From the IMG/VR virus record IMGVR_UViG_3300027963_000061, positions 1 to 64,000 of that record: 64,000 bases of DNA, one strand, 5' to 3'. The notes below the pieces were generated by a model. It was not told the origin of the DNA and made no database searches. It saw only the letters and a program-made list of their open reading frames with translations. Both the position numbers and the translations under genes were made by a program. Source of the DNA: a virus. Each line of letters starts with the position of its first letter. The first letter of the stretch is position 1. Below are positions 4,596 through 64,000 of the stretch, in pieces.

Positions 4596-7500
4596 ATGGC
4601 AAACGAATTTGTAGCCCGTAACGGTATAAAAGTTTTGGTGGTCCCAAGTGGAAGTTCATCAAATCAAGTCGTGGTATGGAACGCGACAACGAATCAATTA
4701 GAAAGAAGAACTGATGCTGGTACCTCAGGTTCTTCAGGAACAAGTGGGTCATCAGGTTCTTCAGGAACGTCTGGTTCAAGTGGTACGTCAGGTTCTTCAG
4801 GAACATCGGGTAGTTCAGGTTCTTCTGGAACATCAGGTTCAAGTGGTTCATCAGGAACATCAGGTTCAAGTGGTTCATCAGGAACGTCAGGTTCATCAGG
4901 AACAAGTGGTTCATCAGGAACAGCTGGCTCATCAGGTTCTTCAGGAACGTCAGGTTCAAGTGGTTCATCAGGAACAAGCGGTAGTTCAGGTTCATCGGGA
5001 ACATCTGGTTCAAGTGGTACATCAGGTTCATCAGGAACAAGTGGTTCATCAGGAACAAGTGGTTCATCAGGAACAAGTGGTAGCTCAGGCTCATCAGGAA
5101 CATCAGGTTCAAGTGGTTCATCAGGAACGTCTGGCTCAAGTGGTTCTTCAGGTACAAGTGGTTCATCAGGAACTGCTGGTTCTTCAGGAACCTCAGGTTC
5201 AAGTGGTTCATCAGGTTCTTCAGGTTCATCAGGAACATCAGGTTCAAGTGGTTCATCAGGTTCTTCAGGTTCAAGTGGTACATCAGGTTCTTCAGGAACC
5301 TCTGGTTCAAGCGGAACAAGTGGTAGCTCAGGTTCTTCAGGAACTTCAGGTAGCTCAGGTTCATCAGGAACAAGTGGTAGTTCAGGTTCTTCAGGAACAT
5401 CTGGTTCAAGTGGTACGTCAGGTTCTTCAGGAACATCAGGTAGCTCAGGTTCATCAGGTAGTTCAGGTTCATCAGGAACTTCAGGTAGCTCAGGTTCATC
5501 AGGAACAAGTGGCTCTTCGGGAACAAGTGGCTCAAGTGGGACTTCAGGTTCATCAGGAACATCAGGTTCAAGCGGTTCATCAGGAACAAGTGGTAGCTCA
5601 GGTTCATCAGGAACGTCTGGCTCATCAGGTTCATCAGGAACGTCTGGTTCAAGTGGAACATCTGGTTCTTCAGGAACAGCTGGTTCTTCAGGTTCTTCAG
5701 GTAGCTCAGGTTCTTCGGGAACATCAGGTTCTTCTGGTTCTTCAGGAACAAGTGGTTCAAGTGGTTCTTCAGGAACATCTGGTTCAAGTGGTTCTTCAGG
5801 AACATCTGGTTCAAGTGGTACGTCAGGTTCAAGCGGAACAAGCGGTAGTTCAGGTTCATCGGGAACATCAGGTAGTTCAGGTTCATCAGGAACAAGCGGT
5901 TCAAGTGGAACCTCTGGTTCTTCAGGAACAGCTGGCTCATCAGGTTCATCAGGTAGCTCAGGTTCTTCAGGAACTTCAGGTAGCTCAGGTTCATCAGGTA
6001 GTTCAGGTTCTTCAGGAACTAGTGGTTCAAGTGGAACAGCTGGTTCATCAGGTAGTTCAGGTTCTTCAGGTAGTTCAGGTTCTTCAGGTAGTTCAGGTTC
6101 TTCAGGTAGTTCAGGTTCTTCAGGAACAAGTGGTTCAAGTGGAACATCAGGTTCTTCAGGAACAGCTGGTTCATCTGGCTCATCAGGAACAAGTGGTAGC
6201 TCAGGTTCTTCAGGAACAAGTGGTAGCTCAGGTTCTTCAGGAACAAGTGGTTCAAGTGGAACATCTGGTTCATCAGGAACGGCTGGCTCATCAGGTAGTT
6301 CAGGTTCATCAGGAACAAGTGGAAGCTCGGGTTCTTCGGGAACTTCAGGTGTATCAGGAGCGTCAGGGACATCAGGTTCATCAGGAACGTCTGGTTCATC
6401 AGGAACGTCTGGTTCATCAGGAACAGCTGGCTCGTCTGGTTCATCAGGAACTTCAGGTTCAAGTGGTTCATCAGGTTCAAGTGGTTCATCAGGAACTTCA
6501 GGTATAAATGGTTCATCGGGAACATCAGGTTCTTCAGGAACAGCTGGCTCATCAGGTTCATCAGGTAGCTCAGGTTCTTCTGGTTCTTCAGGAACAAGTG
6601 GTAGTTCAGGTTCATCAGGAAGTTCAGGTTCATCAGGAACAAGTGGCTCAAGTGGTTCTTCAGGTAGCTCAGGTTCTTCAGGTAGTTCAGGTAGCTCAGG
6701 TTCTTCAGGAAAGTCAGGTTCATCAGGAACGTCTGGTTCAAGTGGAACATCTGGTTCATCAGGAACATCTGGTTCTTCGGGAACTGCTGGTTCATCAGGT
6801 TCATCAGGAACTTCAGGAAGCTCAGGTTCATCAGGAACTTCAGGTAGTTCAGGTTCATCTGGAACTTCAGGTATAAATGGTTCATCGGGAACATCAGGTT
6901 CTTCAGGAACAGCTGGCTCATCAGGTTCATCAGGTAGCTCAGGTTCTTCTGGTTCTTCAGGAACAAGTGGTAGCTCGGGTTCTAGTGGTACTTCAGGTAG
7001 TTCTGGTACATCTGGTTCTTCAGGAACAGCTGGCTCATCAGGTTCATCAGGTAGCTCAGGTTCTTCTGGTTCTTCAGGAACAAGTGGTAGTTCAGGTTCA
7101 TCAGGAACGTCTGGTTCAAGTGGTTCTTCAGGAACATCAGGTAGCTCAGGAACATCAGGTAGCTCAGGAACATCAGGTAGCTCAGGAACATCAGGTTCAA
7201 GCGGTTCTAGTGGTAGTTCAGGTTCAAGTGGAACATCAGGTTCAAGTGGAACATCAGGTTCTTCTGGTTCAAGTGGAACAAGTGGTAGCTCAGGTTCATC
7301 AGGAACTTCAGGAAACTCAGCGGTTGTAAATAACAATACAAATACTTTTGTTGTTACGGCAACAGGAACAGCAGGAACAGTTCAAGGTAACGCAGGTCTT
7401 AGATATGATGGTTCAACATTGAATGTAACAGGGGATACCACAATGACAGGAGCTTTAACCGCAGCATCAAAATCATTTGACATCCCTCACCCAACAAAAG

Positions 7501-7799
7501 AAGGATTCAGATTAAGATACGGTGTGTTAGAAGGACCAGAACATGGAGTATACGTTAGAGGTATTGCAACATCAAAAGTAATAGAATTACCTGATTATTG
7601 GACAGGATTAGTTCACGAAAATAGTATAACAATTCAATTGACACCAATAGGTTCAGCAACACTACATTATCTTGTTAAGATTGAAGATAATAAAATTTAC
7701 ATAGATTCTGAAACATCAGTTATAAATGTTAGTTTCTTCATACAAGCAGAACGTAAAGATGTTGAAAAAGTATTGATAGAATACAAAGAACAAGACTAA
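4596..7799 (+). CDS. Tail fibre with Gly-Ser-Thr triplet repeats and shared C-terminal module
   Basis: This protein has 1067 residues. Residues 1-43 are a non-repetitive head beginning MANEFVARNG, shared with the gene at 7842, so it is probably the attachment end. About 44-905 is an almost unbroken shaft of GTS, GSS and occasional GTA triplets, with rare GIN, GVS and GKS interruptions. The last 160 residues start with a TATGTAGT motif and end in a roughly 110-residue module beginning SFDIPHPTKEG, shared with the C-terminus of the gene at 11180. The shared head and tail modules suggest fibres built from interchangeable parts. The start ATG is preceded by an A-rich leader, as expected in Bacteroidota. 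Virion location is inferred; the repeat structure is directly visible. Confidence 0.85.
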   Translation: MANEFVARNGIKVLVVPSGSSSNQVVVWNATTNQLERRTDAGTSGSSGTSGSSGSSGTSGSSGTSGSSGTSGSSGSSGTSGSSGSSGTSGSSGSSGTSGSSGTSGSSGTAGSSGSSGTSGSSGSSGTSGSSGSSGTSGSSGTSGSSGTSGSSGTSGSSGTSGSSGSSGTSGSSGSSGTSGSSGSSGTSGSSGTAGSSGTSGSSGSSGSSGSSGTSGSSGSSGSSGSSGTSGSSGTSGSSGTSGSSGSSGTSGSSGSSGTSGSSGSSGTSGSSGTSGSSGTSGSSGSSGSSGSSGTSGSSGSSGTSGSSGTSGSSGTSGSSGTSGSSGSSGTSGSSGSSGTSGSSGSSGTSGSSGTSGSSGTAGSSGSSGSSGSSGTSGSSGSSGTSGSSGSSGTSGSSGSSGTSGSSGTSGSSGTSGSSGSSGTSGSSGSSGTSGSSGTSGSSGTAGSSGSSGSSGSSGTSGSSGSSGSSGSSGTSGSSGTAGSSGSSGSSGSSGSSGSSGSSGSSGSSGTSGSSGTSGSSGTAGSSGSSGTSGSSGSSGTSGSSGSSGTSGSSGTSGSSGTAGSSGSSGSSGTSGSSGSSGTSGVSGASGTSGSSGTSGSSGTSGSSGTAGSSGSSGTSGSSGSSGSSGSSGTSGINGSSGTSGSSGTAGSSGSSGSSGSSGSSGTSGSSGSSGSSGSSGTSGSSGSSGSSGSSGSSGSSGSSGKSGSSGTSGSSGTSGSSGTSGSSGTAGSSGSSGTSGSSGSSGTSGSSGSSGTSGINGSSGTSGSSGTAGSSGSSGSSGSSGSSGTSGSSGSSGTSGSSGTSGSSGTAGSSGSSGSSGSSGSSGTSGSSGSSGTSGSSGSSGTSGSSGTSGSSGTSGSSGTSGSSGSSGSSGSSGTSGSSGTSGSSGSSGTSGSSGSSGTSGNSAVVNNNTNTFVVTATGTAGTVQGNAGLRYDGSTLNVTGDTTMTGALTAASKSFDIPHPTKEGFRLRYGVLEGPEHGVYVRGIATSKVIELPDYWTGLVHENSITIQLTPIGSATLHYLVKIEDNKIYIDSETSVINVSFFIQAERKDVEKVLIEYKEQD
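4725..7313 (+). repeat. GSS/GTS triplet-coding repeat block
   Basis: The block holds about 860 codons of Gly-X-Ser triplets. The opposite strand carries an 880-codon open frame of Glu/Pro/Leu/Val codons, which is a by-product of the repeat composition and not a gene. Confidence 0.9.
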
Positions 7800-8437: not shown

Positions 8438-11146
8438 ATGTCAATTAGGGTAAATAAAGGTAATTTTAAAATAAATGCAATTGCGAGAGCGGTTCTTACG
8501 TTTATTCCACCTACACCAACTCCAACGACAACACCAACAACAACTCCGACAGCAACAGTTGGAACAAGTCCTACTCCAACTCCAAGTATCACTGCAAGTC
8601 CTACTTTAACAAAAACGCCAACAGTAACTCCTACGCCTTCAATAACCGCATCTCAAACAGTAACACCAACAAATACTGCAAGTCAAACACAAACTCCAAC
8701 ACCTTCAATTACTGCTAGCCAAACCGTAACACCAAGTAATACCGCAACTCAAACACAAACTCCTACACCAAGTATAACTGCATCACAAACTGTAACACCA
8801 AGTAATACTGCAACTCAAACACAAACTCCTACACCATCAATTACTGCTAGTCAAACACCAACACAAGGCTCAACACCAACTCCAACAATAACTCAAACAC
8901 AAACTCCAACACCTTCAATTACTGCTAGCCAAACCGTAACACCAAGTAATACTGCAACTCAAACACAAACTCCTACGCCTTCAATCACCGCATCACAAAC
9001 CGTAACACCAAGTAATACTGCAACTCAAACACAAACTCCTACGCCTTCAATCACCGCATCACAAACTGTGACACCAAGTAATACTGCAACTCAAACACAA
9101 ACTCCTACGCCTTCAATCACCGCATCACAAACTGTGACACCAAGTAATACCGCAACTCAAACTCAGACTCCTACACCAAGTATAACCGCATCACAAACCC
9201 AAACTCCTACACCAAGTATAACCGCATCACAAACCCAAACTCCTACACCAAGTATAACCGCTAGCCAAACAGTAACTCCAACTAATACCGCAACTCAGAC
9301 TCAAACACCAACTCCAAGTATAACTGCATCACAAACACAAACACCAACTAATACTCCAACACCAACTAATACGCCAACTAATACTTCAACCCCTACTAAT
9401 ACTCCAACTCAAACAGTAACACCATCATCAGTTCTTTATAATTGTGCATCTTGTACAGGAACAGGGTGGGTTCCATATAGTAGTACTCAATGTTATAAAC
9501 AAACAGTAAGTGCCGCAACTCCTCCAACATATACAGTACCATTACAAAGAACTGGGTTTGTTGATTATTCAATAAATGGTACAAGATTCTTTAACTCTGG
9601 ATATACTATTGGTGGAACTGGGTCAGTACAAGCAACATCAACAACAAATAACATTTGGTACAATCAAGTACCAAATAGTTCTACGGGACCAATGAATAGA
9701 AGTGCAATTTGGTACACTGCAGATACTTTACAAAATACTTGGATAGGATTTTCAACTTGTTTATCGGCGTCAACAATTAATGCGACCAAGACTTACTACA
9801 TTGGTACGGGTGCGGATAATGAATTCAGACTTGTGTTAGATGGTCAAGTTATAATTGATACGACTTATGGTAGTATGCCAGCTAGCGATAAATTTAAATA
9901 TTGGAATGTTTATCCTGTAACAATTCCTGCGGGTAATCATACTCTTGAATTATATGGTTTAGATTATGGAGTAGTTGCAGGGTTTGGTATGGAAATTTAT
10001 GATAATACATTAACCCAATTGACCGCAGCAACTTCAACAAGTAATTTGAATATTATTTGGTCAAGTAGCGGATACACAACAGCTGAAATAGTACAAGATA
10101 CTTCAGGTTATTATTTATCTTCAGGGTATACTTGTACTTATCCTGCGGTTTATTCAGTATGTAGTGGTGGATGTATTGATTACGTATATTGTGATGCACC
10201 AGGTATAACACCAACTCCAACACATACCGCAACTCAAACAAATACTCCGACAAATACTTCAACTAAGACACCAACTCAGACTCAAACTCCTACACCAACT
10301 AATACCGCAACTCAGACTCAAACTCCTACACCATCAATTACTGCTAGTCAAACACAAACACCTACACCAAGTATAACTGCATCACAAACACCAACACCAA
10401 CTCAAACACAAACAGGAACCGCAGCAGTAACACCAACACCAACTCCTACACCATTTGCAACATTTGTAGCATCATTTAGTTTCACAAGCCAAAGTGATGT
10501 ATGTTATCAAAGTGGGATAATTCCTATTGATAATTTCAGAATAATTAACAGTAGAACTGCTGGTTCAGATTTCTGTGATAATAGTATACAAGTAAGAAGT
10601 GCAATTATTGATGGAGCAACGTCTAATTTTATTTGGTTAAAATTACAAGGAACTGAAACAGTTAGAATGTTCCAAATACTATTGAATACTTTAGGAGGAT
10701 ATTATTATGCAATACCATACGAAGCTTGTACAACTTGTCCTACCCAAACCCCAACTCCTACCCAAACTCCTACCCAAACTCCTACCCAAACACCAACTCA
10801 AACACCAACAGAAACACCACCAGGAACATTTACAATTTCATGGACAAATAATTTTATAAACACTGGAACAAATACTTTGAACATATACAAGAACGCTGTT
10901 TTAATAGTAAACCAATCTGGACAAGGTAATAATTCGTTTTCAGTTAATAGTAATGATGTTATAACTTATGAATTAATATCCACCACACCTGACTATACCG
11001 AAGTTCAAATAATTGATAATATAAATGGTACTATTTCAAATTGTGGATACGGAAGTGCAAGTGTTGCAGAAACAAATGGGTATTCCTATACAAGTAACGC
11101 TACAATAGATGGAGTCACAACAAATTACGTAGGTGGATGTCCATAA
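8438..11146 (+). CDS. Pro/Thr-rich mucin-like adhesin with PA14-like domain
   Basis: This protein has 902 residues. After a 27-residue head it has a long Pro/Thr/Ser block (about 25-325) built on units such as TPTPSITASQT. A Cys-containing globular domain follows (about 330-585) with motifs NEFRLVLDGQ and AGNHTLELYGL, resembling PA14 or fibro-slime carbohydrate-binding sandwiches. Then come a second Pro/Thr block, a small domain, a third Pro/Thr linker and a C-terminal domain. The globular domain is clearly paralogous to the N-terminal domain of the gene at 27111. The stalk-and-domain layout suggests a surface-binding virion protein, and mucin-like stalks are classic O-glycan carriers. PA14 membership is judged from motif shape only. 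Confidence 0.75.
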   Translation: MSIRVNKGNFKINAIARAVLTFIPPTPTPTTTPTTTPTATVGTSPTPTPSITASPTLTKTPTVTPTPSITASQTVTPTNTASQTQTPTPSITASQTVTPSNTATQTQTPTPSITASQTVTPSNTATQTQTPTPSITASQTPTQGSTPTPTITQTQTPTPSITASQTVTPSNTATQTQTPTPSITASQTVTPSNTATQTQTPTPSITASQTVTPSNTATQTQTPTPSITASQTVTPSNTATQTQTPTPSITASQTQTPTPSITASQTQTPTPSITASQTVTPTNTATQTQTPTPSITASQTQTPTNTPTPTNTPTNTSTPTNTPTQTVTPSSVLYNCASCTGTGWVPYSSTQCYKQTVSAATPPTYTVPLQRTGFVDYSINGTRFFNSGYTIGGTGSVQATSTTNNIWYNQVPNSSTGPMNRSAIWYTADTLQNTWIGFSTCLSASTINATKTYYIGTGADNEFRLVLDGQVIIDTTYGSMPASDKFKYWNVYPVTIPAGNHTLELYGLDYGVVAGFGMEIYDNTLTQLTAATSTSNLNIIWSSSGYTTAEIVQDTSGYYLSSGYTCTYPAVYSVCSGGCIDYVYCDAPGITPTPTHTATQTNTPTNTSTKTPTQTQTPTPTNTATQTQTPTPSITASQTQTPTPSITASQTPTPTQTQTGTAAVTPTPTPTPFATFVASFSFTSQSDVCYQSGIIPIDNFRIINSRTAGSDFCDNSIQVRSAIIDGATSNFIWLKLQGTETVRMFQILLNTLGGYYYAIPYEACTTCPTQTPTPTQTPTQTPTQTPTQTPTETPPGTFTISWTNNFINTGTNTLNIYKNAVLIVNQSGQGNNSFSVNSNDVITYELISTTPDYTEVQIIDNINGTISNCGYGSASVAETNGYSYTSNATIDGVTTNYVGGCP
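8510..9423 (+). repeat. Pro/Thr/Ser tandem repeat coding block
   Basis: About 300 codons encode TPTP, SITASQT and VTPSNTATQTQ modules. A unit of 66 bases recurs several times in tandem between about 8690 and 9200, with synonymous differences between copies. Confidence 0.85.
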
Positions 11147-11179: not shown

Positions 11180-11809
11180 ATGGCAAATATAAACGTTTTT
11201 GATACTAATAACATAAAGTCTACAGGTTTAACCGTAAATGGTGTAACCGTGCTTTCAGGTAATAGTTCTGCGAGTATATTAACTGTAACTGGTCAGACAG
11301 GAACGTTTATGGAAGTGATTGATGACCCTACCTCTAATTTGTTGTGGGGTATATCAGGAGACACGGGTGCTGTTTTTGATGTTAATGATGATTCTATTAA
11401 CGCATATGTCAATTTTAACTATACGGGAAATACAACAACCTCAGGAAATACAACAATTACTGGTTCGTTAAGTGCGACAACAAAATCGTTTGATATTGCC
11501 CACCCAACAAAAGAAGGATATAGAATTACTTATGGTTGTTTGGAAGGACCTGAACATGCAGTTTATCATAGGGGAAGAACAAACTCAGATATAATTGAAT
11601 TACCTGAATATTGGTCAGGGTTGGTAGATGTAAATACAACAACAGTTCAGCTAACACCAAACGGCGAATACACACCACATTGGGTTGATAAGATTGAAGA
11701 CAATCAAATATACATCAAATCTGAATCAGGAAAAATTGATTGTTTTTTCCTTGTACATGGTGAAAGACAAGATGTTCCAAAGATTCTTGTTGTTTACAAA
11801 TCACTTTAA
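11180..11809 (+). CDS. Short fibre protein with SFDI-HPTKEG C-terminal module
   Basis: This protein has 209 residues. The N-terminal half is a Thr/Asn/Val-rich beta-structured region (TITGSLSATTKS near residue 100), and the C-terminal 110 residues start SFDIAHPTKEGYR and include CLEGPEHAVYHRGR. That module is homologous to the end of the repeat fibre at 4596, which has SFDIPHPTKEGFR and VLEGPEHGVYVRG. It may be a trimerisation, chaperone or receptor-binding end used by more than one fibre. There is no long shaft here, so this may be a short fibre or a donor of C-terminal variants. It converges on the minus-strand glycosyltransferase gene with one base between stop codons, so no terminator fits between them. 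Confidence 0.75.
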   Translation: MANINVFDTNNIKSTGLTVNGVTVLSGNSSASILTVTGQTGTFMEVIDDPTSNLLWGISGDTGAVFDVNDDSINAYVNFNYTGNTTTSGNTTITGSLSATTKSFDIAHPTKEGYRITYGCLEGPEHAVYHRGRTNSDIIELPEYWSGLVDVNTTTVQLTPNGEYTPHWVDKIEDNQIYIKSESGKIDCFFLVHGERQDVPKILVVYKSL

Positions 11810-11810
11810 A

Positions 11811-14093
11811 TTATAACGGCAAACTATTAAACACTTGTAATGGTGTGATAGATTTTTGACAAATATGTTGTCTCTCAGTTCCTTTATAAACTGGACACCA
11901 ATCCCAATCACCACCATCAAACGTTAACACAGGGTCATTCCAACATTTAATACAAAGGTTGTTTGAAACTCTTGTCATGTTATATGAAAACTCATGATTA
12001 TTTTCACTGAATCCTGCAATCATAACTGTTTTTTTACCTAACGCCCAGTTCATCCAAGATAGACCTGAACTTAAACCTACGAAGAAATCTGCGTGGAATA
12101 AAACATTCATAACTTCAGACCAATCTTTGGTATGGTTGTGTATGACACCATCAATATTGTATTTCTTTAATGATAAAATTACAACTTCATATCCCAATTC
12201 TTTTAACATTTTTGAAAGGGTAACCCAATTTTCAAAAACCCATTCTTTACAACCCGCAGTTGATTGAGGACCAAAAACAACATATTTCTTTTTTATTGGT
12301 CTTGCTTTAGGTGTGAAATTTAAACTATAATTCATCTCCCTGTATTTCAAACCTAAGATATCTGTTGCGGTTTGTTGTAGAGGAATTAGATTAATCTGAG
12401 TTGGATAATTATCAAACTTTCTCCAAGTTTGATTATCATCTTTAAACCAACCTAATCTATAGACCACATCACAATTAGTTGACTCACCAGGTTTTATGAA
12501 TGAAATGTCACTATAATCTTTGGAACCTTCAAACCATTCATTGTGGAATGTACTTAAAACAACCTTACATTTTTTTTCATTCATTAATTCAATTGCATAA
12601 GGTGCCCATGCTAATGTGTCACCGATAGCCTTTGTTTCAAAAGAGATTAAAACAGTTTTATTCTCCAAACTAAATCTATCAACAATTTCTCCGTTAACTT
12701 TTATAATCCAAGGAATGAAATATTTTTTGGAGCTGGCAACCCACATATTATTGGTAATTGTTTGAGAATGAATTACCTTATCATTATCACCATTGATGAA
12801 CTCAACAAAATATTCTTTTTTCTCATCACCTAAAACTTCAAATCTTGGACCATCTAAGTAATTTATAATAAATCTATTTTCTTTTTTTGGTTTATCTAAC
12901 CAAGGTTTTCTTTCTAAGAAATCGTTAATTGTTTCCAATCCTATTTCAGCAATACGTTCCCAATTAAATTCTTCTCTAATCTGTTCTGATTCTACTAATG
13001 CAAATGTTTTATATCTTTTATAATCACCATAAACCGCAATCATCTTTTCACCTAAATCATCAAAATCGGGTTCATAATAATTTCCAACATTATCATTGAA
13101 ATGATTATATGTGCTAGCACTTACTGGTAATTCGTGTGATATCTTAACAGGAATACCTTTACCTTCACCAAATTCTAATTGACCTGAACAATCTGAATAG
13201 ATTGATGGAGTACCACAAGCCATCGCTTCAATAAGAGGTAAGTTCCAACCTTCAGCTCTTGCACAAGATACAAATACACTACAAGATTTTAATAGTCTAA
13301 TATATTCTTCTCTTGGTGGGAAATGAAGAATCTTAATCCTATCATCTTCCAAACCATAATGTTTTAATCTTTCTTCAGTTGAATTCAATCCATCATTTGA
13401 GAATGGGTTATCAACAGAAACAATTAATTCAACAGGTTCGTTATTATTGAATGTGTTTACAAAAGTTTCAATAACCTCCTTGATGGACTTTCTATAATCC
13501 CATCTTCCTGCTAAAAAGAATGTGAACTTATCTTTTGTTAATGGGTGAGTAACCTCTGTGTCAGGGTAGAATGTGTTTACATCAACACCTTCAGGTACCA
13601 CCTTAATTCTATTTGGGTCATAACCTTGTGCAATGGTACAATCTCTTTGCCATTTTGATGGAACCCACATTTCATCAAACTCTTTTAACTTATTAAAGTA
13701 TTGTTGAGGTTGTAAGGTTGATTCCCATACGTTGTAGGCAATTTTTGGACCATCGTAGTTATCGTAAAAAATGTGATGATTTGTTTCACACAATACAATA
13801 TTGACATCAGGTTCAAACTCTTTAGATACATCAGGGTATAAAGGGAAATCACCTCTTGTTTTATCTGAGTTCCAAAGGATTTGTTTGTATAATAATTTTT
13901 TATCAATCTCATTAAAATAATGTTCATTATCATGAGCATTTTTATTGTATCCTTTCCACGATTTACCGACAGTAAAGTTTCTAACTTTAATATCTGCGTG
14001 TTTATCTAAATGTCTGAAAAAATCTCTTGTGTGTTGATTATATCCTGTGTCACCAACGTAAGAACCGTGGGCATAAATTTTAGGTTTGCTCAT
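11811..14093 (-). CDS. Two-domain glycosyltransferase: GT4 plus autotransporter heptosyltransferase-like domain
   Basis: This protein has 760 residues. The N-terminal half (about 1-390) is a GT-B glycosyltransferase of family GT4: GRWDYRKS near 196, and the acceptor-loop EX7E motif in EGWNLPLIEA (281-290) followed by CGTPSI. The C-terminal half (about 478-760) resembles the bacterial autotransporter O-heptosyltransferase family (TibC type): a GDTLAW motif, then CIKCWNDP, GDWDWCP and a last HIC near the end. Cys714, Cys717, Cys733 and Cys745 match the spacing expected for the iron-binding finger of that family. TibC-type enzymes attach sugars to Ser of repetitive autotransporters, so Ser/Thr-rich phage fibres next door are attractive substrates. 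It is divergent from the sugar operon at 14159. The fold calls are fairly sure; the protein-O-glycosylation role is inferred. Confidence 0.8.
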   Translation of the reverse strand: MSKPKIYAHGSYVGDTGYNQHTRDFFRHLDKHADIKVRNFTVGKSWKGYNKNAHDNEHYFNEIDKKLLYKQILWNSDKTRGDFPLYPDVSKEFEPDVNIVLCETNHHIFYDNYDGPKIAYNVWESTLQPQQYFNKLKEFDEMWVPSKWQRDCTIAQGYDPNRIKVVPEGVDVNTFYPDTEVTHPLTKDKFTFFLAGRWDYRKSIKEVIETFVNTFNNNEPVELIVSVDNPFSNDGLNSTEERLKHYGLEDDRIKILHFPPREEYIRLLKSCSVFVSCARAEGWNLPLIEAMACGTPSIYSDCSGQLEFGEGKGIPVKISHELPVSASTYNHFNDNVGNYYEPDFDDLGEKMIAVYGDYKRYKTFALVESEQIREEFNWERIAEIGLETINDFLERKPWLDKPKKENRFIINYLDGPRFEVLGDEKKEYFVEFINGDNDKVIHSQTITNNMWVASSKKYFIPWIIKVNGEIVDRFSLENKTVLISFETKAIGDTLAWAPYAIELMNEKKCKVVLSTFHNEWFEGSKDYSDISFIKPGESTNCDVVYRLGWFKDDNQTWRKFDNYPTQINLIPLQQTATDILGLKYREMNYSLNFTPKARPIKKKYVVFGPQSTAGCKEWVFENWVTLSKMLKELGYEVVILSLKKYNIDGVIHNHTKDWSEVMNVLFHADFFVGLSSGLSWMNWALGKKTVMIAGFSENNHEFSYNMTRVSNNLCIKCWNDPVLTFDGGDWDWCPVYKGTERQHICQKSITPLQVFNSLPL

Positions 14094-14158: not shown

Positions 14159-14803
14159 ATGGCACAAGGAGTACATAAAATAACAGAAGATTTTGAAAAA
14201 GCTCTGTGTGACTACACGGGAGCCCCTCATGCAATCGCATTAGATAACATGAGTAACGCATTATTTTTGGCGTTATACTATGAAAAAAACATTAAAAAAA
14301 CATTAACGAGTGATACTGTTGATTGTCCATCAAAGACATATCCTTCGGTTCCTTGTGAAATAATTCATGCAGGATTGAAAGTTAATTTTACACCTGTTGA
14401 AGGAAAAACAATCAAAGGAGCCTATACCCTATCACCATCCAACGTAGTAGACTCAGCACTCAGATTTACGGCTGATATGTACCAAGCGGGTACTCACATG
14501 TGTTTATCTTTTACAGGTCCGTATAAGACCTTAAAATTGAGCAAAGGTGGTGCAATTATTACCGATGATTATCAGGCGATGTTATGGTTCAAAAGAGCAA
14601 GATTTAGTGGAAGGAGAGAATGTTCATATCATGATGACCATTTTGACATGCTCGGTTGGAATTTTTATATGATGCCAGAACTTTCGGCAAGAGGGTTATT
14701 GATGATGACACAGTTCTACAATTTAGATGGGACAAAAAAACATAATGCGGATTTGGAATTACCTTATCCTGACTTATCAAAATACGAAATTTATAACAAA
14801 TGA
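14159..14803 (+). CDS. DegT/DnrJ-like PLP aminotransferase, short form
   Basis: This 214-residue protein resembles the DegT/DnrJ/EryC1 sugar aminotransferases that add an amino group to nucleotide-linked keto-sugars. The segment SFTGPYKTLKLSKGG (117-131) aligns with the family PLP-lysine motif, making Lys123 the likely Schiff-base lysine. The N-terminal YTGAPHAIALDN resembles the substrate/PLP pocket start. Usual family members have about 370 residues; this one is much shorter, with the small C-terminal domain essentially missing, so it could be a compact variant or a reduced protein. It opens a plus-strand operon of sugar genes and overlaps the next start by four bases (ATGA). Confidence 0.65.
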   Translation: MAQGVHKITEDFEKALCDYTGAPHAIALDNMSNALFLALYYEKNIKKTLTSDTVDCPSKTYPSVPCEIIHAGLKVNFTPVEGKTIKGAYTLSPSNVVDSALRFTADMYQAGTHMCLSFTGPYKTLKLSKGGAIITDDYQAMLWFKRARFSGRRECSYHDDHFDMLGWNFYMMPELSARGLLMMTQFYNLDGTKKHNADLELPYPDLSKYEIYNK

Positions 14804-15381
14804 AATTAGCATTATTTGGATACGGGGGGCATGCTCGTGAGGTTGCGGTACAGATAGGTCAAGATGTGACCTTCTTTGTTGATGATGACTATGTAACAGA
14901 AAAGACTAAACCTATTAGTTCATTTGACCCGTCTGAATATGTTATGATGGTCGCGGTATCGGATGTAAACGATAGAAAAAGAATTGTTGACTCACTTCCA
15001 AAAGAAACAAAATATTTCACGTTTGTTCACCCAACAGTTCTTAGTATGGATAACAATATTGAAATCGGTGAAGGAAGTTTTATCGGAGCGTATTCAATAT
15101 TAACAACCAATATTAAAGTTGGAAAACATTCAATATTAAATAGAGGAAATCAAATCGGTCATGATTCAATAATTGGAGATTACTTTAGTGCGATGCCAGG
15201 TGCTATTATTTCGGGTAATGTTATTTTAGGAGAAAATGTTTATATGGGAACTAATTCTTCAATCAGAGAAAAAATTCATGTGTGTTCAAATGTAACAATT
15301 GGGTCAAATGCAACGGTTGTAAAAAATATTATAACAGGTGGGACATATGTTGGAGTTCCTGGTAAATTCAAAAAAAATTAA
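14800..15381 (+). CDS. NeuD-like sugar O/N-acyltransferase
   Basis: This 193-residue protein has an N-terminal small nucleotide-binding-like domain (LFGYGGHAREVA, residues 5-16) followed from about 85 by left-handed beta-helix hexapeptide repeats (IGEGSFIGAY, VILGENVYMG, VTIGSNATV). This two-part layout is typical of NeuD/PglD-type acetyltransferases that use acetyl-CoA to acylate amino- or hydroxyl groups of UDP- or CMP-sugars. Following a DegT-like aminotransferase, it could acetylate the newly added amino group, as PglD acts after PglE in bacillosamine synthesis. Start ATG overlaps the previous stop; length is normal for the family. Confidence 0.75.
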   Translation: MKLALFGYGGHAREVAVQIGQDVTFFVDDDYVTEKTKPISSFDPSEYVMMVAVSDVNDRKRIVDSLPKETKYFTFVHPTVLSMDNNIEIGEGSFIGAYSILTTNIKVGKHSILNRGNQIGHDSIIGDYFSAMPGAIISGNVILGENVYMGTNSSIREKIHVCSNVTIGSNATVVKNIITGGTYVGVPGKFKKN

Positions 15382-15382
15382 C

Positions 15383-16285
15383 ATGGTCCTTAAACATAGT
15401 TCAGATAAAATAACTTTTATTGTAGATACAATTCATTCAATTGGGTATGAGACAAAGGGTGCATCAATTGCTTGTCATAGGTTGGCTTATGAGCTGGCTA
15501 ATCAGGGTCACTACGTTTATATTTTTAATGAACCGTTTTATCCTCATGAAAATATTGGAGTAATACCCGTTGAAAAAAGAAATGAAGATGATGGGTGGTG
15601 GAATAAATTTTATTGGACACCATTTGGATATAATCCTGAAAGAACAGTTTCAATATACACTCAAATAACGTGGGGTAACCCGATGAATACAATTCATAAT
15701 GTAAGATGGGTATTACACGATTATGAGTCTGTGCAATGGGAGACATTTGGTGATAATGAATATGTTTGTAATTTTGGAACATTTCAAGTTCCTGAAGGAA
15801 TTAAACAAACTAAATTGACTATTTTTGATTATAAGTTTGATAAGTTTTATGATAAAAATAATCCAAGTAGAAAAGGTTTTGGACATATAATCCATAAGAA
15901 TACTCCTGAATGGGGGTTAGAATTTTTAAAACAATTTGGGTCAACAGAAATATCACATTATAACGGACAAAAAAATCTTGATTATTTAACGGACGAGTTC
16001 AACAAGTATGAATATGTTTTAACTTTTGATGATAAGTCATATTATACCACGGCAGCCGCTCTGTGTGGAACCAAGAGTATTATTTTGAATCCAAATGAGA
16101 ATATAACACCATCGGAATATAGATTAGAAAACCCTATTCAAATGTGCGGTGTTGCATATGGGATGAACAATATAAAATGGGCAGACCAAACGATTGGGTT
16201 GGTTAGAGACCATTTATTAGAATTGGAAAAAAGAGATAAACAAACAATATCTAATTTTTTAGAATATTGGAATAAAACATTATAA
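15383..16285 (+). CDS. Glycosyltransferase-like protein
   Basis: This 300-residue protein has its start set at ATG 15383; the frame is open 45 bases further up, but that part lies within the preceding gene. The N-terminus (ITFIVDTIHSIGYETKGASIACHRLAYEL) has the pattern of a GT-B N-terminal domain: strand, Gly-rich loop, then an RLAxEL helix. A C-terminal stretch with AALCGTKSIILNP near residue 235 resembles the donor-binding region where GT4 enzymes have ACGTP. Acceptor and sugar are unknown. It sits inside the sugar operon, two bases before the next gene. A glycosyltransferase role is likely but rests on local motifs and context. Confidence 0.55.
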   Translation: MVLKHSSDKITFIVDTIHSIGYETKGASIACHRLAYELANQGHYVYIFNEPFYPHENIGVIPVEKRNEDDGWWNKFYWTPFGYNPERTVSIYTQITWGNPMNTIHNVRWVLHDYESVQWETFGDNEYVCNFGTFQVPEGIKQTKLTIFDYKFDKFYDKNNPSRKGFGHIIHKNTPEWGLEFLKQFGSTEISHYNGQKNLDYLTDEFNKYEYVLTFDDKSYYTTAAALCGTKSIILNPNENITPSEYRLENPIQMCGVAYGMNNIKWADQTIGLVRDHLLELEKRDKQTISNFLEYWNKTL

Positions 16286-16287
16286 TA

Positions 16288-18168
16288 GTGGAAAAACAAG
16301 TAGGGTTAGTTGAAGTGTGGTTAGGTAAAATACCTGACTATTTCCAGTATCATCTTGAAACAATAGGGACAATATCCTGTGCCGACTTTTACTTCTTTAC
16401 CAACGATAGAGAGTACGATTTTTCTCAAATTAAACATGACAACTTTCATTTAAATTACATAGATGAAACTGAATTTTTAGAGAGATTTAATAAAACATCA
16501 AACATTAAAGTTGATAAGATATCACACCCAAAGAAGATTATTGATTTCAAATTAGCTTATTTTGAGATGTTTTCTGACTACGTTGGAAACTACCCATATG
16601 TTGGAATATACGATATTGATACAATGTTTGGTGATATTAATCAAACCATATTGGATAGTGTTAATCGTTATGATTTTATCTCTGTGGGTGATGAAGTATA
16701 CCATAACAGATTGAGTGGGCCTTTGATGATTGTTAGAAATACCAAAGAATTCCACGACTTAATGAAGACCGATAGATACTATGAAACATTAGTACAGGAA
16801 GACATATATGGTTACGGAGAACAAGAGTTATCTGTCATTGCGATGAACAACTATAAGACCAAGATAATCTACTCAATGAATACCGAAACAAATAATGGTG
16901 GAAAAAACAGTTACGATGTTTGTTGGAGTGGTGGTAAGTTAATTGTAAATAAAGAGGAGAAGTTAATCTATCATTTTATTAGGAAGAACCACACCATTTT
17001 TCAAAAGGTTGGAAACCAAATATTCGGTAGATATGATAAACAGTTTGCTGAAGACTTTTATTGGGTGTTTGGATTTACAGAGAATTACTCTCAGACAGTG
17101 CCATATTTGATGGATTCAATTAACAAATATTCTAATAGGATGTGTGTTATCTATACCATAAATTTTGATTATCAAATACCTAAAAAATTTTTAACAAGTG
17201 GTCAATTTATATTCAAAAGAATTGACATACCTGAGGGAAAAAAAGATTATAGAGGAAGAGATGAAAACATTATTAGCTCCAAACCAAAATTAATGTTGGA
17301 TGTTTTGAATTTCTTACCAAACAAAAAATTCATCTTTATTGATAGTGATGTTAGCTTAACAGTTAGTGCTGACGACATCAGTAAGTATTTTTCAAGATTA
17401 ACCAACTTTCCATTAATCAATTCACACACTCATGACAGAATTTATTTAAGTGGATTGGTTGAAGGTGAGCAGTGGACCAGTACGATTGATATTGTTGCGA
17501 ATAAAGTTGGGGTAGAGGTATGTGTTTATCCAAGAAGAAAGACAAACATTATGTTGTTTGATGAAAATTCAAGATGGTTTTTCCAAGAACAGATTGACCT
17601 ATATGAAACGTATAAGGATAGTGAACCTGGTATATTTGCCTTTCATGATGAGGACTCAGCTAATCTAATTCTTTCAAAATATAAATTATTTGATTGTCTT
17701 CATTTATGTGATATTGAAGAATGTGACGACATTGATATGGGTAAATTTTCAGATACCAATCATCCATTTCATATGACAGGGTTGTCTCCATTTTTGGTGT
17801 TACCAAAACATCAAAATGATGTGGTATTCTTTCACGGGCTAAAAGACATTGGTAGATTCCAATCCATAGAGAGGACATATGGAAACACTGTACTTGATTG
17901 TGAAGAATTGTTAGTAACCTATTCAAACAATTCTATTTTCTTTGAGAAGAACTCATTTTTAACTTCTAAAAAGATTGATGAGAATGTTGATTTCATAATA
18001 TCTGACTTAGATGGTAATATCATTGAAAAATTAGAGAATCAACAACTAATGAATTATTGGGTTTTTTACCTATCAAATGTTTTTTTAGAAAAAAAATCTT
18101 ATATTATTGAGATAGTTAAAACCCATAGTAAGGTCAAAATTTATAATAATCTTTTAAAAATACAATAA
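16288..18168 (+). CDS. Two-domain GT-A type glycosyltransferase
   Basis: This 626-residue protein uses a GTG start; no in-frame ATG fits near the preceding stop. The first half (about 1-260) resembles DUF6625-like glycosyltransferases: WLGKIPDYFQ near 11-20 and IYDIDTMFGDI with DxD at Asp109/Asp111. The second half (about 280-500) holds another GT-A core with FIFIDSDVS and DxD at Asp352/Asp354. DxD motifs bind the metal and the nucleotide-sugar. Two catalytic-looking domains in one chain suggest sequential addition of two sugars. The C-terminal 110 residues are unassigned. It sits two bases after the previous gene and two bases before the next, so it is co-translated within the island. Confidence 0.65.
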   Translation: MEKQVGLVEVWLGKIPDYFQYHLETIGTISCADFYFFTNDREYDFSQIKHDNFHLNYIDETEFLERFNKTSNIKVDKISHPKKIIDFKLAYFEMFSDYVGNYPYVGIYDIDTMFGDINQTILDSVNRYDFISVGDEVYHNRLSGPLMIVRNTKEFHDLMKTDRYYETLVQEDIYGYGEQELSVIAMNNYKTKIIYSMNTETNNGGKNSYDVCWSGGKLIVNKEEKLIYHFIRKNHTIFQKVGNQIFGRYDKQFAEDFYWVFGFTENYSQTVPYLMDSINKYSNRMCVIYTINFDYQIPKKFLTSGQFIFKRIDIPEGKKDYRGRDENIISSKPKLMLDVLNFLPNKKFIFIDSDVSLTVSADDISKYFSRLTNFPLINSHTHDRIYLSGLVEGEQWTSTIDIVANKVGVEVCVYPRRKTNIMLFDENSRWFFQEQIDLYETYKDSEPGIFAFHDEDSANLILSKYKLFDCLHLCDIEECDDIDMGKFSDTNHPFHMTGLSPFLVLPKHQNDVVFFHGLKDIGRFQSIERTYGNTVLDCEELLVTYSNNSIFFEKNSFLTSKKIDENVDFIISDLDGNIIEKLENQQLMNYWVFYLSNVFLEKKSYIIEIVKTHSKVKIYNNLLKIQ

Positions 18169-18169
18169 C

Positions 18170-19315
18170 ATGCATCATTCAGCTTATGTAAACGCGGAAA
18201 AATTCGCAATAAAATACACTCCAAACTTAGAGGGTAAAAAAATTCTTGACGTTGGTTCATACGATGTTAACGGAACATTAAAACCAATTTTTGAGAAAGG
18301 AATCTACACTGGTTTGGATATGGAAGCAGGTCCAAATGTTGATGTTGTTTCTGATGCTCATAATATCCCTTTTGATAATGAACATTTTGATATTGTTACA
18401 TCATCGTCTTGTTTTGAACACGATGATATGTTTTGGGTAACATTCTTAGAAATGTGTAGAGTGGTAAAACCTGGTGGTTATCTATATGTTCAAGCACCTT
18501 CAAATGGACCATACCACGGATGGCCTGGTGACAATTGGAGATTCTATATTGATAGTTGGAAAGCCTTAGAAAAGTGGGGTAAAAGAGAAGGATATGATAT
18601 TGAATTAGTTGAACACTACATAGATGAGACAACTCCACCAGCAGAACACGAAGGAGATAGATTATGGAATGATTCTGTTGCGATATACAAGAAGAAACCA
18701 TTACAAACATTTAATACTGATTTAAAGTCTATTGAAATAGGACATTTAAATACGACATATAGAGGGGTTATAATGCACAAATGTCCATTTGATGTTACGA
18801 TGTATCAAATGATAATAAATGAACTTAAACCTGACTTAATTATTGAGATTGGTACTTACAAAGGAGGTGGTGCCTTATATTACGCTGACTTATTAGATAT
18901 TATCGGTAAGGGAGAAGTTCATACAATTAATATAATGGAGGATGTTACTGACCCACAAATTATTAATAACTCAAGAATTAAACGATTCACTGAAGGATAT
19001 CAAAACTATGATATTAGTTTGGCTAACGGTTTTGAAAAAGTTTTGGTAATTGATGATGGTTCACATCATGCTCACGAAGTATTGGAGGCGTTCAATAAAT
19101 TCAAATCAGTAGTAACTTTAGGTTCGTACTATATTATTGAAGACGGAGTATTAAGTGATTTAGGTTATAACCCAACATATGGTGGTGGACCATTACAGGT
19201 TATGGATGAAATTATCAATAACAATAAAGACTTTACGGTTGATAGAAAATGGTGTGATTTTTATGGTGAGAATGCAACATTTAACCCTAATGGATATCTT
19301 AAAAGAACCAACTGA
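18170..19315 (+). CDS. SAM methyltransferase fused to CmcI-like domain
   Basis: This protein has 381 residues. Residues 1-180 form a class I SAM-dependent methyltransferase with motif I at ILDVGSYDVNG (25-35), an acidic loop TGLDMEAG, and VVKPGGYLYVQAPS as the post-motif strand. From about 190 a second Rossmann-like domain resembles CmcI/cephalosporin-hydroxylase-type methyltransferases: IIEIGTYKGGGALYYADLL and VLVIDDGSHHAHEVLEA. Both halves are expected to bind SAM, so the protein may methylate sugar hydroxyls at two positions, or one half may be regulatory. It lies inside the sugar operon, which favours a glycan substrate. Domain assignments are from motif recognition. Confidence 0.7.
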   Translation: MHHSAYVNAEKFAIKYTPNLEGKKILDVGSYDVNGTLKPIFEKGIYTGLDMEAGPNVDVVSDAHNIPFDNEHFDIVTSSSCFEHDDMFWVTFLEMCRVVKPGGYLYVQAPSNGPYHGWPGDNWRFYIDSWKALEKWGKREGYDIELVEHYIDETTPPAEHEGDRLWNDSVAIYKKKPLQTFNTDLKSIEIGHLNTTYRGVIMHKCPFDVTMYQMIINELKPDLIIEIGTYKGGGALYYADLLDIIGKGEVHTINIMEDVTDPQIINNSRIKRFTEGYQNYDISLANGFEKVLVIDDGSHHAHEVLEAFNKFKSVVTLGSYYIIEDGVLSDLGYNPTYGGGPLQVMDEIINNNKDFTVDRKWCDFYGENATFNPNGYLKRTN

Positions 19316-19321
19316 AGGACA

Positions 19322-20251
19322 ATGAATAAAGTAGCGTTAATCAGTACTTACTGTGATAATCAGGAAAAATTAGATGTTCTTGAGAAAAATATTGGCATAG
19401 TTAAATCTTATGGTTTAGATGTTATAGTGGTTAGTCCTATTGTTTTACCTGAAAGTATTCAAAAACAATGTGATTACTATTTCTTAACCAAAGACAATCC
19501 TGTGTTAGATTGGCCCAAAAGGGCAATGTACATATGGAGACAACTACCTTTAGGTGATGAGAAAATTGTAATAACAACAACATATCCTGACTACGGATGG
19601 GCGGGATTACTTCAAGTTAGACAATTAAGTGATATTGCATTAATGTTAAATTATGATTGTTTTTACCATATGATATATGATTTAAAAATTGATGATAATG
19701 TAAAACATTATTTTGACAACCCACATGAAAATATAATTTTCCCATCCAAAAGAGGAAATGAGATATGGAAAGTAGGATTACACCTTATGATTTTTGATAG
19801 AAAGAATCTAACACAATTTAAGTCGTTAATCTCAGAAGAAAGTTATTTTGCGGTTAAAGGAGACCACGCATTTAAATGGTTAGAAAGAATTATTGGTACA
19901 ACAAAATCTGAAATTGCAGAAACGCCTGTAGAAGATGAAATATATTACTACGAAGGTCACGACTTTTTCAATTCATCACCAGCAGAAGGAGTTAAATTTT
20001 TTATAAATAAAAACGATGAGGTTGATGAGACAATAAAACTATTATTTTATTATGTTTCTGAACCAAAAGAGGTAAGGATTACTATAAATGATACCTTTTA
20101 TGATTATGTAATTAATAAAGACTCACTCATTGATTTAGGGTTTGATAAATTTAATATTCCAAAAGTGTTATTTAAATATATGGGTGTTGAATATGATATT
20201 ACCAATACAATTAAAAAAATAAAACATAGTACACTTAACGTAACTAACTAA
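19322..20251 (+). CDS. Putative GT-A fold glycosyltransferase-like protein
   Basis: This 309-residue protein starts with MNKVALISTYCDNQEKLDVLEKNI, the usual first strand and helix of GT2-like enzymes, and continues with VIVVSP and a YYFLTKDNPVLDWPKRA stretch seen in phage glycan genes. No clean DxD is visible, so catalysis is uncertain. The last 80 residues look like a separate small beta domain. Neighbours on both sides are sugar-modifying enzymes, and it overlaps the next gene by one base (TAATG). It may be a glycosyltransferase or an accessory glycan protein. Confidence 0.5.
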   Translation: MNKVALISTYCDNQEKLDVLEKNIGIVKSYGLDVIVVSPIVLPESIQKQCDYYFLTKDNPVLDWPKRAMYIWRQLPLGDEKIVITTTYPDYGWAGLLQVRQLSDIALMLNYDCFYHMIYDLKIDDNVKHYFDNPHENIIFPSKRGNEIWKVGLHLMIFDRKNLTQFKSLISEESYFAVKGDHAFKWLERIIGTTKSEIAETPVEDEIYYYEGHDFFNSSPAEGVKFFINKNDEVDETIKLLFYYVSEPKEVRITINDTFYDYVINKDSLIDLGFDKFNIPKVLFKYMGVEYDITNTIKKIKHSTLNVTN

Positions 20252-20799
20252 TGATTGAGAATATACATTTATGGCATGCTGATAGAGGAAGTTATTTTGA
20301 TAGAAACGTCAACATAATTTCTTGGAGTAATGATTACCATATACACGTTGGGAAATACTGTTCTATCGGAAGAGATTGTAATTTCTTTTTACATGCAAAC
20401 CATAGACCTGATTGGATAACAACATCCTCCCAACTGTGGGGACCTGTTACACCTGAAATTGCATCATTACACATGGAGATGGGTCATCCATCTTGTAAAG
20501 GTGATATTATAGTTGGTAGTGATGTTTGGATTGGTGCCAAGTCAACAATAATGTCTGGTATTAAAATCGGACACGGAGCAATTGTTGCTGCGGGTGCATT
20601 AGTAACCAAAGACGTTGAACCATTTTCCGTTGTTGGTGGTAATCCTGCAAAACATTTAAAGTACAGATTTGAAGAACAACAAATTAAAGACCTCTTAGAT
20701 ATTGCTTGGTGGGATTGGGAAGAAAGTAAGATTAAAGAAGAAGCGATGACATTATGGAGTCAAGACATAAATTATTTTATAGAAAAACATAAGAAATGA
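20251..20799 (+). CDS. CatB-type hexapeptide-repeat acetyltransferase
   Basis: This 182-residue protein has left-handed beta-helix repeats from about 30 (IHVGKYCSIGRDC, IIVGSDVWIGAKSTIMSG, IKIGHGAIVAAGALVTKDV) and the VVGGNPAKHLKYRF tail typical of CatB/xenobiotic acyltransferases, LacA and cell-surface sugar O-acetyltransferases. The HxxHRPDW segment near 50 probably carries the catalytic His. It should transfer acetyl from acetyl-CoA to a sugar hydroxyl. This is the second acetyltransferase in the operon after the NeuD-like one, so the final glycan may carry two acyl groups. It overlaps the next start by four bases. Confidence 0.8.
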   Translation: MIENIHLWHADRGSYFDRNVNIISWSNDYHIHVGKYCSIGRDCNFFLHANHRPDWITTSSQLWGPVTPEIASLHMEMGHPSCKGDIIVGSDVWIGAKSTIMSGIKIGHGAIVAAGALVTKDVEPFSVVGGNPAKHLKYRFEEQQIKDLLDIAWWDWEESKIKEEAMTLWSQDINYFIEKHKK

Positions 20800-21641
20800 T
20801 AACAGTAACATATAATTCAGACGGTATTAAAGTTAGTGTTGGACACATTAGCAAATACAACAAAAATTTACCATTAAAGTTAAACATTAGAAAGCATGTT
20901 AGTGGAGATGTACAATGGTCATCAAACTTAAATGATAATTGGTTTGCTACATATCCTAATACAGAAATGTTTGATGTTGAAATTCTTGATTCAAGAGGAG
21001 TAATTGTGTATACCAAAAAATGGGACATCATGGAGCACGGAAACCATTTCTATAAGTCTTTATGGGCCTATAATAAATCATTATTATCTAATGGAAAATT
21101 CCCAACAGGGTTAGTTATCGGAACACATGATGGTGAGTTTGGAGAGTGGGTACCAATAGTTCAAAATAGAGAATGTAAGGTTGTTTTAGTTGAAGCTTCA
21201 GACAAACAATTTAATAAGTTAAAACAAAATTATACTAAAAACTCACTCGTTAAACCAATTCAAAATTTAATAACACCAAATGGTGGAGAGGTTGAATTTT
21301 TTGAGGGAGGTGAGGGATATACAAATACCATAGTTGAAAGTGTTATTAAACATTGGGAAAAAGAAGAAATTCACTCAACTAAAAAAAGCTCTATTAGTAT
21401 TACCGATTTGATTCTATCAGAATGTGGTGGGCAAATTGATTGGTTACACCTTGATGTTGAAGGGTTAGATGCTCAATTAATTATGGGGATTGATGAAACT
21501 AAAGTTTCATTACCCAATTTTATTATTTTTGAAGATTATAATTTATCTCAAGATAAAAAAGATGAGATTTATAACTGGTTAAAGAACAAAGGCTTTGAGC
21601 TCAAATCTGAGGGTGGAATTTGTGAGGCAATAAAAAATTAA
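20796..21641 (+). CDS. FkbM-like methyltransferase
   Basis: This protein has 281 residues. After an N-terminal domain of about 85 residues, a SAM-binding fold begins near 105 (GLVIGTHDGEFGEWVP, motif I-like) with VVLVEASDKQFNKLKQNY as motif II. Near the C-terminus IDWLHLDVEGLDAQLIMGI is a strong match to the FkbM family signature. FkbM enzymes O-methylate sugars and polyketides. It is the last gene of the island on the plus strand; downstream lies a small minus-strand ORF, with no clear terminator. The extra N-terminal domain is unusual for the family. Confidence 0.75.
   Translation: MITVTYNSDGIKVSVGHISKYNKNLPLKLNIRKHVSGDVQWSSNLNDNWFATYPNTEMFDVEILDSRGVIVYTKKWDIMEHGNHFYKSLWAYNKSLLSNGKFPTGLVIGTHDGEFGEWVPIVQNRECKVVLVEASDKQFNKLKQNYTKNSLVKPIQNLITPNGGEVEFFEGGEGYTNTIVESVIKHWEKEEIHSTKKSSISITDLILSECGGQIDWLHLDVEGLDAQLIMGIDETKVSLPNFIIFEDYNLSQDKKDEIYNWLKNKGFELKSEGGICEAIKN

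Positions 21642-62361: not shown

Positions 62362-64000
<1,639 letters not shown>

Follow-up and report, generated by a model that had tools for sequence, protein, structure and literature searches.

The locus examined here raises the question of what a phage protein that joins two glycosyltransferases in one chain glycosylates, and by which steps. The window (64,000 nucleotides) is part of an 82,742-base IMG/VR record of an aquatic phage and carries an open reading frame of 760 residues with an ATG start (11811..14093, - strand). A preliminary description had taken it for a GT4 glycosyltransferase fused to a TibC-like domain with the iron-finger cysteines expected for autotransporter heptosyltransferases, in which one chain could start an O-glycan and then extend it. 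Profile and fold searches confirmed the fusion itself. The N-terminal half (about residues 1-395; 12909..14093, -) matches Pfam Glycos_transf_1 (PF00534) over residues 184-307 with 56.2 bits (cut-off 26.4), and its nearest profile is the phage family PHROG 2170 (E 5e-34). It looks competent by its sequence: the EX7E motif (E281-GWNLPLI-E289) and R197/K202 of the GR..RK motif occupy columns that are invariant in 48 homologues. It shares the GT-B fold and EX7E motif with GT4 enzymes such as 3oy2, MshA, HepE and PglA, but differs from them in that it makes up the N-terminal part of a chain with two enzymes and has a phage family as its closest profile.

The C-terminal half (about residues 405-757; 11823..12881, -) contains the motifs CIKCWNDP, GDWDWCP and HIC and scores 225.7 bits against TIGR04414 (hepto_Aah_TibC) over residues 425-757, above the curated cut-off of 200, so that the profile comparison with the BAHT family came out positive; the Pfam profile TibC_1st stays below its 27-bit cut-off (21.9 bits). 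TibC itself (4rap_A) was matched by phmmer over residues 410-754 (E 2e-43). The domain had been thought to begin at residue 478. Its likeness to TibC stands, whereas its true start lies at about 405-410, because the N-terminal beta-barrel of TibC (about residues 405-475) is also present, ahead of the GT-B catalytic lobes and the iron finger.

An AlphaFold2 model built from an alignment of 48 homologous fusions reached a mean pLDDT of 90.4 and a pTM of 0.61; confidence is therefore high within each half and does not extend to how the halves are oriented towards each other. In Foldseek the TibC chains 4rap and 4rb4 were the top PDB matches (TMt 0.82, E ~1e-27, about 376-384 columns of a target of about 384 residues), ranking above the GT4 enzymes 3oy2, GlgM, MshA, HepE and PglA. 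The structural match to TibC is thus full-length, so that the check by which the preliminary description could have been refuted left it standing, and the barrel strands appear in the model at residues 407-473.

How closely the second half follows TibC was assessed at residue level. In TibC, iron is held by Cys339, 342, 358 and 370, Asp110 is the catalytic base, and Thr226, Lys230, Arg286 and Trp305 contact the donor; replacing Asp110, Arg286, Trp305 or Lys230 with Ala abolishes or largely diminishes activity (PMC4358343). Arg286, which contacts the adenine, is essential in TibC and conserved in its family, and the thumb tip Phe265-Val266 links dimers into a dodecamer, thumb-tip mutants being inactive dimers (PMC4358343). 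In a nonredundant alignment of 152 rows, including 78 phage fused domains and 8 canonical bacterial domains, Cys714, Cys717, Cys733 and Cys745 of the window protein (11859..11954, -) pair one to one with the iron ligands at the same spacing (3/16/12), and D492, T612, K616 and W680 take the places of Asp110, Thr226, Lys230 and Trp305. The equivalents of Asp110, Lys230, Trp305 and the four cysteines are invariant in all 78 fused domains. Given the TibC alignment and the fold match, the four cysteines would be expected to cluster in space.

The expectation that the domain resembles autotransporter heptosyltransferases fails at two other features. The Arg286 position is V661 in the window protein; the arginine is kept in 8/8 canonical bacterial domains, in 26/50 phage domains that are alone or short, and in 3/78 phage fused domains. 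At the thumb tip the window protein and 70/78 fused domains have a gap, a result that depends on the alignment, as the pairwise phmmer alignment sets Val-Ile opposite Phe-Val; in the model this region is a single short strand (651-653) with no hairpin. The position of Pro300 is occupied by S675. The loss of Arg286 and of the thumb tip makes it probable that both donor and assembly differ from those of TibC: judged by these residues, the enzyme probably uses a donor other than ADP-heptose and probably forms an iron-finger dimer in place of the dodecamer ring. Its profile match, fold, catalytic residues and iron finger assign the protein to the wider TibC/TIGR04414 group; Arg286 and the thumb keep it outside the BAHT family strictly defined, and "autotransporter heptosyltransferase" is therefore unfit as a functional name. 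The two losses offer direct handles on donor choice and oligomer state in the TibC-like family. Apart from them, it is set off from TibC and Aah (TIGR04414; 4rap, 4rb4) by its fusion to GT4 and by its place in a phage genome beside fibre genes.

The supply of a heptose donor was also considered. No GmhA or HldE-type gene was found in the 82.7-kb record of the window, which is compatible with supply of ADP-heptose by the host. Among 50 records searched, rfaE domain II gave no match above cut-off, and its weaker matches (10/50 records, mostly frames of about 140 residues) are probably cytidylyltransferases. A "cytidylyltransferase like protein" of the Microcystis phage Mel-JY01 was set aside as a candidate HldE, its sequence being unlike HldE by eye and TIGR02199 finding nothing in that genome. 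GmhA occurred, among the records searched, only in the 636-kb phage LR756504. There (LR756504.1) the gene at 430182-430640 scores 251.5 bits, over the curated cut-off, with a standalone TibC-like gene (457139-458203) some 27 kb away; because that genome has both, some phages may supply their own heptose precursors.

Analysis of the distribution of the family showed that, in the collections scanned, TibC-type protein glycosyltransferases, known from bacterial adhesin modification, turn up much more often in large-phage genomes than in the bacteria sampled. Each of two profile scans returned at least about 595 relatives in viral contigs, and the near relatives among the matches listed are nearly all full GT4-TibC fusions. 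The fusion is a genuine gene and not an assembly artefact, because it is conserved across dozens of independent contigs. Of 46 contigs selected through an unrelated nuclease gene, 27 carry the family above its cut-off. A nuclease gene places Microcystis and Tenacibaculum phages among the nearest isolates, with identities of no more than 26-35%. The family was found in 8/399 Pseudomonadota genomes (the chosen centre included), all unfused by open-frame length, and in 1/396 Bacteroidota genomes, the single case being the chosen centre. The earlier statement that known domains of this type work alone thus holds for the sampled bacteria and not for phages, where fusion is common and similar proteins are already in public databases. 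Five fusion loci from metagenome-assembled genomes (L095, L104, L105, L109, L111) were not counted as bacterial, as they may be phage or mis-binned contigs; for four of them (L104, L105, L109, L111) the bins are Bacteroidota, Deltaproteobacteria and an archaeon of the Nitrosotalea type, and these four may be prophages, phage contigs binned wrongly or genuine cellular genes.

A FastTree phylogeny of the TibC-like domain places the window protein in a 57-row clade (support 100) made up of fusions and three rows cut by contig ends, and places the canonical bacterial TibC relatives in a separate clade of their own; elsewhere on the tree the fused state changed several times. This bears on the reading that the enzyme glycosylates a host adhesin or another host surface protein, as TibC and Aah do with TibA and AIDA-I. 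The conserved fold and catalytic residues would suit such a role. Against it, the gene sits in a large tailed-phage lineage apart from the canonical bacterial clade, the thumb required for the TibC-TibA ring is missing, and the neighbours examined, all of them fibre and sugar-tailoring genes, included no recognisable adhesin gene. We regard a host adhesin as a very unlikely acceptor.

Whether the two enzymes act in succession was addressed through phage genomes in which they are encoded separately. Of 35 standalone full-length TibC-like genes from phages (some of the counted contigs being near-duplicates), 29 have a GT4-like gene upstream in the same orientation, no more than 2.5 kb away, and nearly all of these upstream genes overlap the TibC-like gene by 1-29 bases. 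The same arrangement was seen for 0/11 standalone copies from bacterial contigs, a count that omits L096 because its row falls inside a phage clade. As the two are fused in some genomes and in an overlapping operon in others, there is strong indirect evidence from gene arrangement that the GT4 and TibC-like steps are consecutive. The same comparison (29/35 versus 0/11) lends indirect support to the proposal that one chain would start an O-glycan and then extend it.

The TibC-like domain also combines with other modules. Further phage proteins join it to other GT4 enzymes, FkbM or other methyltransferases, GT25, a DXD-type glycosyltransferase, a PIG-L deacetylase or DUF6165, in chains of up to about 1,600 residues, with a single open frame of 1,921 residues besides. 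Seven fusions (L075, L077, L078, L084, L085, L088, L089) have an additional C-terminal extension of about 480 residues, which in L084 bears a PIG-L-type deacetylase domain. One phage protein of 1287 residues (L126, 3184-7044) contains heptosyltransferase-family (GT9) stretches, an FkbM methyltransferase and the TibC-like domain. Similar multi-domain proteins are already in public databases, some of them annotated by another module only. The 1226-residue protein WWT39291.1 of phage Mel-JY01 likewise has GT4 and a TIGR04414 domain in one chain; in PP395634.1 (4750-8430) it reads GT4-X-TIGR04414 with 317 bits, is annotated only as "methyltransferase FkbM" and lies beside a structural gene. A0A6J5SUQ0, A0A6J5SVC1 ("Glycosyltransferase Aah/TibC", 924 residues) and A0A7S9XE01 match the AlphaFold2 model over one or both halves. 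All four are set apart from the window protein by third modules, which differ. The literature that we searched, with most subscription papers outside the search, yielded no analysis of TibC-type enzymes in phages.

The neighbourhood of the gene points to a likely acceptor. A gene for an LEGPEHGVY-type tail-fibre C-terminal domain, here termed S74-like (11180..11809, +; PHROG 17490, E 1e-38), is convergent with the fusion gene and ends about 1-2 bp short of its stop; homologues lie near the gene in other phages, and we consider it a candidate acceptor partner. Further along lie three candidate acceptors: a collagen-like G-S/T-S/T repeat protein of 1038 residues (1330..4446, +; 56% Ser+Thr), a collagen-like fibre of 1067 residues that ends in a LEGPEHGVY-type domain (4596..7799, +; 56% Ser+Thr), and a TPTPT/SITASQT repeat protein of 902 residues (8438..11146, +; 36% Ser+Thr). 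Collagen-like repeats (SGTDGTSGT..., GAQGNTGAQ...) read out of frame account for ORFs such as MELQVQTELQ at 1-1252 and 62894-63478, and the window therefore begins and ends in or beside further collagen-like fibre genes.

The association with fibres recurs in other phages. The LEGPEHGVY-type domain occurs in 10 of the 27 contigs carrying the family, at a distance of a few bp in the window and of 0.4-11 kb in nine other contigs (67-321 kb); the combined random-placement p is 1.7e-4 for seven representatives. A census of Gly-X-X or Ser/Thr-rich ORFs in the flanks (82/184) carries no weight here, since it lacked a control and was confounded by repeats read out of frame; a test with a control gene took its place. 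The family lies within 10 kb of the fibre gene at 10/47 nonredundant fibre loci, often at 30-800 bp, compared with 0/80 control-gene loci; the p value of 2e-5 is approximate, the control loci being not deduplicated and drawn from a narrower phage set. At least 30% Ser+Thr was reached by 8/10 fibres beside the family and by 2/37 of the others, and arrays of G-S/T-S/T repeats were found in 22/27 contigs. There is a precedent in TibC, whose partner TibA is a repetitive surface protein modified on Ser (PMC4358343). Some observations count against fibres as the acceptor: 37 of the 47 fibre loci have no family member nearby, the arrays are absent from the contigs, as sequenced, of several relatives (L002, L005), and the acceptor of TibC consists of beta-helical strands, not collagen helices. 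Nor is adjacency proof of a substrate, because fibres and glycosyltransferases gather in the host-recognition regions of big phages regardless (PMC7029224).

On the other side of the fusion gene lies a sugar-tailoring island (14159..21641, +) with a DegT-type aminotransferase of 214 residues, a NeuD-like acetyltransferase, an ORF at 15338, a DUF6625 protein, a CmcI-like methyltransferase, an ORF at 19322, a Vat/CatB-like acetyltransferase and an FkbM methyltransferase; several members keep their order beside the fusion gene in seven other contigs (L002-L005, L008, L248, L262). O-antigen clusters, too, typically contain aminotransferase, NeuD-like, methyltransferase and acetyltransferase genes, and the TibC-like domain matches Glyco_transf_9, the LPS heptosyltransferase family (38.6 bits, cut-off 22). 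Both observations would agree with the main competing explanation, in which the protein alters the host surface polysaccharide (O-chain or capsule) during infection and so blocks superinfection or changes receptors, the usual reading of fibre-adjacent glycosyltransferases in pelagimyophages (PMC7029224). However, the domain belongs to the protein-modifying TibC subfamily, with iron finger and barrel and a score over the TIGR04414 cut-off, and it is not of the WaaC type (TIGR02193, 27.8 bits, far below the cut-off of 185.3); proximity to Ser/Thr-rich fibres also recurs. We therefore hold a polysaccharide acceptor to be rather unlikely. Many phage glycosyltransferases act on modified bases of phage DNA, like the T4 alpha- and beta-glucosyltransferases, and this is a common annotation for them (PMC12619734), yet here no base-hydroxymethylating gene was recognised adjacent, the gene sits in a fibre and tailoring island, and a protein-acceptor subfamily is conserved, which leaves DNA as the least probable target of those considered.

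Taken as a whole, the evidence somewhat favours a predicted protein O-glycosyltransferase with two functions, whose target would be the collagen-like, Ser/Thr-rich tail fibres of the phage itself; a virion fibre is the likely acceptor because the genome is that of a phage and the neighbours found are fibre genes. The TibC-like domain, with Asp492 as base, would draw on a nucleotide sugar to place a first sugar on Ser/Thr of the fibre repeats, the GT4 domain would add a second (the order of steps being a guess), and the neighbouring enzymes may make or trim the glycan with amino, acetyl and methyl groups. The proposed role resembles virion glycosylation in mycobacteriophages, where phage-encoded glycosyltransferases also act on virion proteins: Freeman et al. 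2023 (cited in PMC12619734) are said to have found that such enzymes decorate capsid and tail proteins of the virion. To our knowledge those enzymes are of other glycosyltransferase types, and we know of no TibC-like domain among them.

In the collections scanned, phage TibC-type enzymes are mostly fused or coupled to GT4 and often lie near Ser/Thr-rich collagen-like fibres. A broader and more tentative proposal, to which we give somewhat less than even weight, is that large aquatic phages share a widespread modular system of protein O-glycosylation, in which a donor-changed, thumb-less starter derived from TibC and a GT4 extender, fused or operon-coupled, would work with swappable methyltransferase, deacetylase and glycosyltransferase modules, in chains of up to about 1,600-1,900 residues, to coat giant Ser/Thr-rich collagen-like fibres. 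If the fibre reading is right, many aquatic phages would O-glycosylate their fibres, with consequences for receptor binding, fibre stability and evasion. Mel-JY01, a phage with a named host, could be used to test the fibre-glycosylation reading.

Two further features of these loci were observed. The DegT-type aminotransferase (14159-14803) is exactly 214 residues long, about half the usual length, and retains SFxxxxK; it has the same length and 75-97% identity in at least seven related phages and could represent a minimal functional form. In L003 (10289-11170) and L004 (10286-11164) the fusion is followed directly downstream by another TibC-like gene, which is shorter (about 293 residues) and has no barrel, and genes of this kind, which form a separate long-branched clade, also occur in L023, L194-L199, L209, L212 and L217.
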